From Cellulomonas sp. B6 (lineage in GTDB: Bacteria > Actinomycetota > Actinomycetes > Actinomycetales > Cellulomonadaceae): 64,000 nt of DNA. Of this stretch, positions 53,699 through 55,767 are shown one piece after another. The stretch lies in NCBI RefSeq assembly GCF_001462455.1, contig NZ_LNTD01000004.1, positions 1 to 64,000 on the forward strand. The letters run 5' to 3'. A program made the translations under genes and the position numbers. Position 1 is the stretch's first letter; each line of letters starts with the position of its first letter. The notes beneath the pieces were generated by a model, which saw nothing but the letters and a program-made list of their open reading frames with translations, had not been told where the DNA came from and ran no database searches.

Positions 53699-54061
53699 GT
53701 GCACCACGGTCGCAGCGGGTTGGCCCCGCTCCTCGCCGTCGGCCTCGTCATCGTGGTCGGCGTGGTGGCCCTCCTCGTCGCGGGGCCGCTGGCCGAGCGG
53801 TGGGCCCGCACCGACCGGTCGTGCGAGGACCTGGTCCCCCGCGCCGAGGTCGAGGCCGACCTCGCCGCGAAGGCCGACGCCGTCGCCGAGCTCGAAGCCC
53901 TCTCGCCCGACGTCCGCGTGGGCGTCGGCGAGCCGTGCGCCGAGCAGCCGGGCATGGCCCGCATCGAGGTCACGTACGGGCCGGGCACCCCGCTGGACGT
54001 CGTGCGGCGGAAGATCTCGACCTCCGGGTTCGACGCCCCGCTGGCACTCCTCGCCCCCTGA
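53699..54061 (+). CDS. small membrane-anchored protein, tandem copy 1
   Basis: A 120-residue protein of unknown function. One transmembrane helix (LLAVGLVIVVGVVALLVAGP) is followed by an extracytoplasmic domain with two conserved cysteines: DRSCEDLVPRAEVEADLAAK and GEPCAEQPGMARIEVTYG. The pair could form a disulphide. It is clearly paralogous to the next gene (same architecture, both Cys, ALSPDVRV/AVSPDVRV). Its GTG follows a TAGCAT box at leaderless spacing, 20 bases after the antiporter stop. No family was recognised. Confidence 0.8.
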   Translation: MHHGRSGLAPLLAVGLVIVVGVVALLVAGPLAERWARTDRSCEDLVPRAEVEADLAAKADAVAELEALSPDVRVGVGEPCAEQPGMARIEVTYGPGTPLDVVRRKISTSGFDAPLALLAP

Positions 54062-54251: not shown

Positions 54252-54617
54252 GTGCAGAACGGCCGGAGCCAGCGGCTCCCCCTCATCCTCATCGGCGTCA
54301 TCATCATGATCGGCGCGGTGGGCTACCTCGTGGCCGCGCCGCTCATGGACCGCTGGGCCGGCGCGGACCGCTCGTGCGAGAACCTCATGCCGCGCAGCGA
54401 GGTCGAGGCCGCGCTCGCCGCGAACCCGGACGTCGCGGCGAAGCTCGAGGCCGTCTCGCCCGACGTCCGCGTCGAGGTCGTCGAGCCGTGCGCCGAGAAG
54501 CCCGGCATGGCGACCATCCGGGTCAGCTACGGGCAGGAGGCCGACCTGGAGTACCTGCGCAGCACCCTCATGGTCAGCCGGTTCGGTGACGCCCCGACGG
54601 TGCTCCGGTCCCGCTGA
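54252..54617 (+). CDS. small membrane-anchored protein, tandem copy 2
   Basis: A 121-residue paralogue of the protein at 53699. The helix is LPLILIGVIIMIGAVGYLVA, then DRSCENLMPRSEVEAALAAN, LEAVSPDVRVEVVEPCAEKP and ATIRVSYG. Both Cys and the RSCE(D/N)L and SPDVRV segments are kept. The C-terminal 25 residues differ more. The pair arose by tandem duplication with the antiporter tail; being intact in both copies suggests both are functional. Role unknown; coupling to ion transport is only suggested by position. Confidence 0.8.
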   Translation: MQNGRSQRLPLILIGVIIMIGAVGYLVAAPLMDRWAGADRSCENLMPRSEVEAALAANPDVAAKLEAVSPDVRVEVVEPCAEKPGMATIRVSYGQEADLEYLRSTLMVSRFGDAPTVLRSR

Positions 54618-54671
54618 GGGCACGGCCGTCGGGCCGGTGAGACACCGGCCCGAGCCTCGCACGACCGGCGT

Positions 54672-54677
54672 TATGGT
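54672..54677 (+). promoter_or_regulatory. -10 box of a leaderless promoter (leader peptide)
   Basis: TATGGT ends six bases before the ATG of the leader frame at 54684. Confidence 0.6.
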
Positions 54678-54683
54678 GCGGGC

Positions 54684-54740
54684 ATGGATCCCATGAGCAG
54701 CCTCGGGTGCGCGGCGCGCCGCGGCCCCTGCGCCCGGTAG
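54684..54740 (+). CDS. 18-residue leader peptide upstream of an EamA exporter
   Basis: A short frame reads MDPMSSLGCAARRGPCAR and stops with TAG at 54738-54740. It begins six bases after a TATGGT box, so a message starting there would be read at once by the ribosome without a leader. It has two Cys and three Arg codons. Its stop codon coincides with the start of the first hairpin, and a second hairpin lies just ahead of the exporter start at 54844. This is the geometry of attenuation by a translating ribosome. Translation of the peptide is inferred. Confidence 0.55.
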   Translation: MDPMSSLGCAARRGPCAR

Positions 54741-54829
54741 CGGGCCCTCCCCCGGCGGACGCACGGCGTCCGCGGCTCGACGGCCCGCGCTGATCGACAC
54801 CACCCCCGCCGGCGGCGTCCGGCTCGATC
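54740..54829 (+). promoter_or_regulatory. two-hairpin leader RNA (putative attenuator)
   Basis: Hairpin 1: outer stem GCGGGCC (54740-54746) with GGCCCGC (54782-54788), enclosing inner stem GCGGACG (54755-54761) with CGTCCGC (54767-54773). Hairpin 2: GATCGA (54792-54797) with TCGATC (54824-54829), enclosing GCCGG (54808-54812) with CCGGC (54819-54823). A ribosome ending at the leader stop codon would cover the outer arm of hairpin 1. Hairpin 2 lies 14 bases before the exporter ATG and could limit ribosome access. Confidence 0.6.
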
Positions 54830-54843
54830 ACCCGGGACCTCTC

Positions 54844-55767
54844 ATGACCTTCCTGTCCTCCTTCCGTGCTGCCCACCCGCGCTCGGGCCCGCTGCTCGCG
54901 CTGGGCCTCGTGCTCGTCGGCTCGTCGAGCATCCAGGTGTCGGCGGCGCTGTCGTCGTCGCTGTTCGCGACCGTCGGGACGCTCGGCGTCAGCGGTCTGC
55001 GCATGGCCGTCGCGGCGCTCGTGCTGCTGGCCCTCACGCGGCCGTCACTGCGGGGTCGTCCACCGCGCGCGTGGCGCGGCGTCGTGCTCTACGGCGTCGC
55101 GATGGCCGCGATGAACGTGCTGTTCTACGCCGCGGTGCAGCGGCTGCCGCTGGGCCTGGCGGTGACGCTCGAGTTCCTGGGGCCGCTCACGGTGGCCGCC
55201 GCGGGGGTCGCGCGGCGGCGCGAGCTCGCGCTGCCGGCCGCGGCGCTCGTGGGCGTGCTGCTGGTCGCCGGACCGGTGGGCGGCGTCGACGCGCTCGGCG
55301 TCGGGTTCGGCCTGGGCGCGGCGGTCGCGTTCGGCGCGTACACGTTCCTCGCGGGCCGTGTCGGCGACGACACCGCGGGCCTCGACGGGCTCGCGCTGTC
55401 GGTCGCCGTGGGGGCGCTCGCGCTGCTGCCGTTCTCGGTGCCGGCCGTGCCGCGCGTCGCGGCCGGCGGGTGGGGCGTGCTCGTCGTGTCGGGCCTGCTG
55501 GGCGTCGCTCTCGCGTTCTCGCTCGACTTCCTCGCGGTGCGGGTGAGCTCCACGCGCGTCGTCGGCACGCTGTTCGCGATGGACCCCGTGACGGGCGCGC
55601 TCGTCGGGGCCGCGCTGCTGGGCGACCCGCTGGGCGTGCGAGCCGTCGCCGGGATCCTGCTGGTGTCGGCGGCGGGCGCCGCGACGATCTGGGTCGCGGG
55701 GCGGGCCGCGAGCGGGGCAGCGGACGACGCCATCGACACCGCCCCCGTACCGGCCCCGCTCGGCTGA
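54844..55767 (+). CDS. EamA/DMT-family exporter (RhtA-like)
   Basis: A 307-residue transporter with ten hydrophobic helices and two EamA repeats: LALGLVLVGSSSIQVSAALS opens the first, AMNVLFYAAVQRLPLGLAVT is characteristic of RhtA-like members, and DFLAVRVSSTRVVGTLFAMD the second repeat. Such proteins export amino acids or metabolites; E. coli EamA itself exports cysteine and O-acetylserine. A Cys-containing leader peptide and two hairpins upstream suggest regulated translation or transcription. It is a paralogue of the gene at 15420-16277. Confidence 0.88.
   Translation: MTFLSSFRAAHPRSGPLLALGLVLVGSSSIQVSAALSSSLFATVGTLGVSGLRMAVAALVLLALTRPSLRGRPPRAWRGVVLYGVAMAAMNVLFYAAVQRLPLGLAVTLEFLGPLTVAAAGVARRRELALPAAALVGVLLVAGPVGGVDALGVGFGLGAAVAFGAYTFLAGRVGDDTAGLDGLALSVAVGALALLPFSVPAVPRVAAGGWGVLVVSGLLGVALAFSLDFLAVRVSSTRVVGTLFAMDPVTGALVGAALLGDPLGVRAVAGILLVSAAGAATIWVAGRAASGAADDAIDTAPVPAPLG

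Follow-up and report, generated by a model that had tools for sequence, protein, structure and literature searches.

The gene for an RhtA-like exporter in Cellulomonas sp. B6 is preceded by a short reading frame whose product begins M-D-P-M-S-x-x-G-C-[AS]-x-R-R-G-P. This peptide recurs at 19 distinct loci in three genera and two families, and a cis-regulatory leader of the exporter very likely exists. The best explanation, and the one toward which we lean, is that ribosome arrest at Gly14/Pro15 of the leader would rearrange the downstream RNA and so control the exporter. Comparison across the loci supports selection on the peptide, a fixed spacing of the −10 box, and linkage to one exporter clade, and it supports conservation of the RNA stems more weakly.

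The window is the whole stretch of DNA that was analyzed, 64,000 nucleotides of contig NZ_LNTD01000004.1, and the leader, its −10 box, the hairpins, and the exporter gene lie on its forward strand. Reading the sequence places the box, the 18-codon frame, and both hairpins at the positions given by the original prediction. The −10 box TATGGT occupies 54672–54677, and the leader ATG lies six bases further on at 54684. The leader frame MDPMSSLGCAARRGPCAR has 18 codons, including two Cys and three Arg, and ends at a TAG stop (54738–54740). It consists of a conserved core of codons 1–15, MDPMSSLGCAARRGP (54684–54728), and a variable tail, Cys-Ala-Arg plus the stop (54729–54740). Hairpin I is predicted by RNA folds at 54740–54788, starting at nucleotide 57 of the leader; its first paired base is the G of the TAG, and its arms are GCGGGCC (54740–54746) and GGCCCGC (54782–54788). 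Hairpin II (54791–54830), identified from sequence and folds, has the arms TGATCGA (54791–54797) and TCGATCA (54824–54830) around an inner GCCGG/CCGGC stem, ends 14 bases from the exporter ATG at 54844, and is found in such form only in the two loci of the window's own lineage. In the predicted free RNA, leader tail nucleotides 54733–54737 pair with CCGGG at 54832–54836, a pairing that is identical in loci L001 and L002 when folded from nucleotide 43 to the exporter. The exporter gene spans 54844–55767 and encodes 307 amino acids.

The peptide core is conserved residue by residue. Met1, Asp2, Pro3, Met4, Ser5, Gly8, Cys9, Arg12, Arg13, Gly14, and Pro15 are invariant in 19/19 loci, which comprise 12 from the window's genus, five from genus g62 of another family, and two from genus g29. 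Synonymous variation is seen in nine of these 11 codons, the exceptions being both ATG codons, and the Arg13 codon is CGG, AGA, CGA, or CGC. Identical residues encoded by synonymous codons indicate that selection acts on the peptide. Positions 6, 7, 10, and 11 are variable, position 16 is Ser, Gly, or Cys, position 17 is Ala in 17/19 loci, and beyond it the tail differs in both sequence and length. Strict invariance ends at codon 15 while the stop codon shifts from codon 18 to codon 25, giving peptides of 17–24 residues. The second Cys of the window's leader, at position 16, is present in 2/19 loci, leaving Cys9 as the sole conserved Cys.

The peptide was first sighted by reading 5′ of exporter relatives, and a peptide profile was then run through genomes. 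Profile A1, run against the order (297 genomes) with matches accepted up to E = 1, gave five matches at E ≤ 1.9e-9 with the next best at 8e-4. Profile A2 at E ≤ 1e-4 detected the leader in 12/81 genomes of the window's genus, 2/6 genomes of g29, 5/29 genomes of g62 (the genus of genome G134), and 5/245 genomes of the family of G134. The search for the leader outside these two families with profile A2, in 396 genomes of the phylum, returned only the window's own genome. These searches scored only the best first-pass candidates, 30 to 150 per genome and fewer in the phylum search, so diverged leaders may be missed. The 19 loci were gathered with a fixed core pattern that lost none of the 19 profile-match genomes, and duplicate loci were merged; profile and pattern were both built on the conserved core, and strongly diverged leaders could escape them. 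Named carriers include Cellulomonas pakistanensis, Cellulomonas sp. RIT-PI-Y, and Cellulomonas sp. ACRRI. A DNA search with 261 bp in 58 genomes matched 194/261 bases in one genome (G028) and 56 bases within the leader of a second (G034), and the further listed matches were 24–112 bases long.

The promoter region is fixed relative to the peptide. A TAnnnT box lies 6–7 nt 5′ of the ATG in 19/19 loci, which predicts a leaderless start, and the transcript probably begins at the leader ATG itself. The joint recurrence of peptide and −10 box at every one of the 19 distinct loci found bears out the view that the arrangement is more than chance, and spacing and peptide conservation together support the proposed leader peptide with a predicted leaderless start. 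A conserved triplet, GAC at 54641–54643 in the window, is GAC in 16/19 loci and GTC in 3/19 with identical spacing, 28 nt 5′ of the −10 box and at approximately −43 relative to the A (+1) of the leader. Its conservation makes it a possible candidate site for a regulator, either activator or operator. By eye, −35 hexamers are poor in the GC-rich loci and read TTGnnn in g62. An inverted repeat, GGGCCGGTG-AGA-CACCGGCCC (54631–54651), lies directly 3′ of the open reading frame ending at 54617 and overlaps the −43 triplet; it may be the terminator of the upstream gene. The window also encodes tandem small membrane-like proteins of 120 and 121 residues (53699–54061 and 54252–54617) that are alike by eye and have no Pfam match.

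The exporter matches Pfam EamA with E = 8.2e-18. Its best NCBIfam match is the threonine/homoserine model RhtA at 105.9 bits, far under the model cut-off of 354; at E ≤ 1e-3 it otherwise matches only TIGR00950, a general transporter model. No cysteine-exporter model is among the NCBIfam matches at this threshold, in a library that may hold none. The exporter lies 3′ of the leader in 19/19 loci and starts 141–163 nt past the leader A by a simple start rule. Presence of the leader and presence of this exporter clade coincide. In 110 genomes of two genera they co-occur in the same 17; the 12/81 leader genomes of the window's genus and the 5/29 of g62 are those with an exporter of at least 56% identity. 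A search of the 81 genomes of the window's genus for the exporter (E ≤ 1e-45) found 12 with at least 63% identity, and these are the 12 leader genomes; five more genomes have exporter relatives at 39–54% identity, and the leader matches in none of them. Four of these five relatives were fetched and scanned upstream, where the leader is absent and a long reading frame extends as far as the exporter. In loci L156–L159 of the same genus, exporter relatives of ~53% identity lie immediately 3′ of the stop of a long upstream frame with no leader, and this frame is similar across the four. The five exporter genomes among the 29 of g62 are the five leader genomes. Among the 297 genomes of the order, the top five exporter matches (E ≤ 1.3e-83) come from precisely the five leader genomes, and 78 further genomes have an exporter at E ≤ 1e-35 with no leader match of comparable strength. 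The scanned upstream regions of distant exporters (~34–54% identical) contain no such leader. The exporter had no match on plasmids at E ≤ 1e-20.

A maximum-likelihood tree was built from 38 exporter rows, of which some are partial. The 19 leader rows form one cluster (support 97/96), and only two identical Luteimicrobium rows inside this cluster lack the leader. The leader label requires two changes on the tree compared to 13.0 in shuffles, for example one gain and one loss, a clustering that also reflects the inclusion of near relatives. The Luteimicrobium album exporter (L061, the same as G364) has 70% identity and is without the present leader. Its gene points away from two others, an SMR efflux gene (SugE-like, below cut-off) and a TetR-like gene; a palindrome, TGGTAC-N4-GTACCA, lies between them and the exporter (2380–2510 of L061). 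A different 17-codon leaderless-type frame is found here, MQRRLGSCPARPLGKPP, with its ATG 6 nt past TAGCGT and its stop overlapping the exporter ATG. This frame scored 0.0 bits against the leader profile, and 165/401 reported shuffles were equally good, so the Luteimicrobium leader has been either replaced or changed past recognition.

Neighboring genes were inspected by eye at nine loci with crude reading-frame calls. No neighbors are shared between lineages, and the neighborhood was rejected as a clue to the exporter substrate. Members of lineage C share some neighbor genes, and a TetR-type gene and an Ohr-type gene lie downstream in both the window and locus L153.

The RNA following codon 15 was evaluated by folding and by comparison with shuffled sequences. 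For the window, the 199-nt RNA gave z = −0.76 with 40/200 shuffles as good, the segment from codon 15 to the exporter start gave z = −0.94 with 16/100 as good, and nucleotides 57–110, containing hairpin I, gave z = −2.42 with 5/200 as good. As a single sequence, the predicted fold of the window's RNA is thus modestly past chance. Rfam at gathering scores identified only a tRNA elsewhere in the window and gave no match for six related loci. Free folds from nucleotide 43 have negative z values in 19/19 loci (−0.94 to −3.92), and at 14/19 loci, the window not among them, at most 5/100 shuffles were as low. Sixteen of the 19 loci, representing six lineages, were folded from nucleotide 43 (codon 15, no ribosome) and from nucleotide 57 (ribosome halted at codon 14/15). 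In the free fold the leader tail is predicted to pair downstream in all six lineages; the core of hairpin I starts at about nucleotides 57–64 in lineages A–E and is absent from the g62 minimum. In the halted-ribosome fold hairpin I begins at nucleotides 57–60 in all six lineages, a start that the cut point helps to set. Hairpin I starts near the 3′ edge assumed for a ribosome that has stopped at codon 14/15. In the two related g29 loci the leader stop is at nucleotides 73–75 and hairpin I lies within the leader tail, which indicates that hairpin I tracks codon 14/15 and not the stop. The predicted folds with and without the leader tail differ in all six lineages, in keeping with the proposal that the shape of the RNA should depend on where the ribosome stops.

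Substitutions avoid the predicted stems. This test was run within lineages on the fold of one member, its columns are not independent, and lineage D, with one locus, was left out, giving five lineages. In the free fold, 30/348 paired columns vary compared to 55/217 unpaired columns with the lineages pooled (p = 7e-8 for the lineages combined), and in g62 the counts are 1/66 paired and 15/42 unpaired (p = 1.3e-6). Restricting the free fold to G/C columns gave p = 0.0026. The halted-ribosome fold gave p = 0.013 combined over all columns, and its G/C columns gave p = 0.12 combined and 0.012 pooled. Compensatory changes on both sides of a pair were absent from lineages A, B, and F; two-sided changes affect 1/33 pairs in lineage C (free fold) and 0/36 (free fold) and 1/28 (other fold) in lineage E. 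Some member breaks 3/34, 4/33, and 2/36 free-fold pairs in lineages B, C, and F, respectively. The original prediction had looked to conserved leader codons and covarying stems: the codons are conserved in the 19 loci, stem covariation is nearly absent, and conserved paired positions stand in its place. Selected RNA structure after codon 15 is moderately supported by these predictions, and the exact switch is not.

The effect of the fold change on the exporter start was then predicted. With a ribosome at codon 14, start accessibility goes up in 8/19 loci, is unchanged in 2/19, and goes down in 9/19, and in the window it falls from 0.45 to 0.25. Unmasking of the start or Shine-Dalgarno sequence as a common mechanism was rejected on this inconsistency. 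The g62 loci appear to be the cleanest example of a switch: in the predicted free fold a long hairpin encloses the exporter start region, formation of hairpin I would disrupt this long hairpin, and computed accessibility is slightly up in four of the five loci and down in one. An intrinsic terminator was also rejected; none of the 14 GC-rich loci has four consecutive T anywhere from the leader stop to the exporter, and in the three of five g62 loci that do, the T run is inside hairpin I, not 3′ of it. The spacer between leader and exporter, taken alone, has more C than G in 19/19 loci (33–54% C compared to 23–32% G). With a C-rich spacer at every locus, Rho-dependent control as described for CruR would be possible.

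Leader arrest would proceed as follows. The transcript would begin at the leader ATG, and the peptide encoded first, 17–24 residues long, would regulate the RhtA-like exporter in cis. During its synthesis, the chain M-D-P-M-S-x-x-G-C-[AS]-x-R-R-G-P would slow or halt the ribosome at Gly14/Pro15. Arrest is probably signal dependent, and the signal is most likely a compound removed by the exporter. A halted ribosome, with an assumed footprint of about nucleotides 26–58, would bar the leader tail from downstream pairing, and the RNA would shift from tail-paired forms to hairpin I directly ahead of the ribosome. This shift may raise exporter expression, either because the start region becomes free or because termination factors are denied access to the C-rich spacer. 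In short drug- or metabolite-sensing leaders the whole nascent chain matters, and conservation from Met1 onward suggests that the whole 14–15-residue chain matters here. More tentatively, this leaderless 14–15-residue chain may sense the exporter's own substrate in the upper ribosome tunnel, making the ribosome that translates from the first base of the transcript the regulator of an exporter of the amino acid type. That reading, and with no greater assurance, would make the core MDPMSxxGCxxRRGP a new arrest-peptide family with a new ligand.

The invariant R-R-G-P end of the core is the basis for comparison with arrest peptides. The available portions of three reports describe an Arg as essential in the arrest cores R-A-P, R-G-P, and R-A-G (PMC12992588, PMC10951299, PMC10951233). 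In the available text of PMC12992588, the Arg of ApcA, ApdA, and ApdP is irreplaceable and the ribosome stalls when the third residue occupies the P-site. The rule calls for a small residue following the Arg (Ala or Gly, and in part Ser, Asp, or Pro) and for Pro or Gly in the P-site. ApdA and ApdP tolerate or even favor Gly at the Ala position, which ApcA does not, and in ApdP a RAGP motif retains partial arrest activity. Arg as the second residue of the motif is not permissive in ApdA or ApdP, and ApcA (RAPG) arrests without an A-site proline (PMC12992588, same portions). SecM has Gly165 in the P-site and Pro166 in the A-site, and Arg163 and Pro166 are critical (PMC10951299, in part). The leader has an Arg two residues before the P-site residue in either of two registers, Arg12 and Arg13 both being invariant in 19/19 loci. 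The register R12-R13-G14|P15 is SecM-like with an A-site proline, but Arg in the second place breaks the ApdA/ApdP rule. The register R13-G14-P15|[S/G/C]16 has the favorable R-G-P, but its A-site residue is Ser, Gly, or Cys and not proline. Judged by its sequence, each register thus breaks one published rule, and we do not assign the leader to the RAPP-type arrest peptides. If arrest requires a ligand, an intrinsically weak core would be fitting. Like the RAPP/RGPP/SecM-type peptides ApdA, ApdP, ApcA, and SecM, as the consulted sections describe them, the leader has an Arg-x-Gly-Pro or Arg-Gly-Pro core near its C terminus and is encoded 5′ of the gene it would regulate. In those peptides the core is past residue 100 of secreted or membrane proteins with a link to protein localization, whereas the leader is 17–24 residues with R-R-G-P and a putative arrest.

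A rather unlikely explanation is antibiotic-type translation attenuation, in which the leader ribosome is stopped by a compound that targets ribosomes, as for cmlA, ermC, and cat, and this compound induces the exporter that removes it. The leader is short and conserved from its N terminus, the absence of a neighbor common between lineages would suit a stand-alone cassette, and the Luteimicrobium exporter adjoins the SugE-type SMR efflux and TetR-like genes. Against this, RhtA relatives are known for amino acids, the exporter has no resistance annotation, and the predicted rise in start accessibility is inconsistent across loci. The precedent is cmlA, for which the portion of PMC8876359 consulted describes a 9-residue leader with alternative stem-loops. 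Both systems place a very short peptide and alternative stem-loops, predicted ones here, 5′ of an exporter-type gene. They differ in that cmlA has a 9-residue leader with a strong Shine-Dalgarno sequence, chloramphenicol as inducer, and a stem-loop that masks the cmlA Shine-Dalgarno sequence (PMC8876359, in part), whereas consistent masking was not found across the present loci.

An amino acid starvation attenuator, in which a shortage of charged tRNA-Cys or tRNA-Arg would stall the ribosome at codon 9 or at codons 12/13 and so switch the hairpins, is less probable still. The leaderless-type start, the invariant Cys9 and Arg12-Arg13, and the use of AGA or CGA for Arg13 in 8/19 loci suit it, and leaderless Cys-codon leaders occur in mycobacteria (PMC4633059, PMC9031893, in the parts available). 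Those mycobacterial short reading frames (PMC4633059; Canestrari et al. 2020 as cited in PMC9031893, PMC13236596) are leaderless, as the present leader is predicted to be, and resemble it in being Cys-containing, actinobacterial, and located 5′ of the gene under control. In the consulted parts of these sources they carry clustered or contiguous Cys codons and precede genes that include cysteine genes, whereas the present leader has one conserved Cys9, a strict peptide, and an RhtA-like exporter. The leader lacks the contiguous Cys codons of polycysteine leaders, Cys9 alone being conserved across the 19 loci. Cysteine or arginine sensing, the guess attached to the original prediction, is not supported in its codon-starvation form: there is one conserved Cys codon and no Cys or Arg run, and starvation would not require the conserved M1-D2-P3-M4-S5, G8, or G14-P15. 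An exporter induced by scarcity of its own presumed substrate makes little sense, and the nearest named model for this exporter is RhtA. An exporter should respond to excess, so ligand-induced arrest fits better than starvation. The codon-starvation model was set aside on the codon counts in the 19 loci.

Sensing of a thiol, redox state, or metal by the nascent chain through Cys9, perhaps with Met1 and Met4, to cause or relieve arrest as in CruR ranks just below the starvation model in probability. It would fit the C-rich spacer and the invariant Cys9, which precedes the R-G-P core by a few residues. A single Cys in a chain of ~14 residues still within the tunnel argues against it, and we know of no metal link for this exporter family. 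The precedent is CruR (DUF2946), which senses copper through a CXXC before a RAPP arrest coupled to Rho termination, according to the available part of PMC9426467. The CruR copper upstream reading frame and the leader share a conserved Cys, an Arg-Pro arrest-type core, C-rich downstream RNA, and association with transport genes. CruR differs in having a CXXC, RAPP at 139–142, and demonstrated roles of copper and Rho (PMC9426467, same part), compared to a single Cys, R-R-G-P, and a leader that is a candidate regulator only. That the leader encodes a small peptide with a function of its own, and is only linked to the exporter, is very improbable: strong peptide conservation and strict linkage would suit a peptide-transporter pair, but strict conservation stops at codon 15, the tail varies in length, conserved RNA structure follows directly, and peptide transport by DMT transporters is not known to us.

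Arrest of the leader ribosome at Gly14/Pro15 is the explanation we carry forward. By analogy, the leader's closest functional counterparts would be CruR and exporter attenuation of the cmlA type; the peptide, start mode, and gene differ. No description of it was found in the open-licence literature, peptide strings included. The leader is new as a family, and its general kind is already known. Overall, the observation on which the original prediction was based is confirmed, and its interpretation is partly supported.

Leader peptides that halt their own ribosome are, to our knowledge, few, mainly erm/cat, TnaC, and secretion monitors. The leader described here adds a small, defined arrest candidate in actinobacteria: it is predicted to be leaderless, has 17–24 residues, belongs to one exporter clade, and is conserved residue by residue. 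It also offers a direct handle on the natural substrate of an RhtA-like exporter, since whatever compound triggers the leader is likely also the one exported. The conservation of the 18-residue peptide before the exporter suggests that the translating ribosome acts as the sensor that sets the exporter level.
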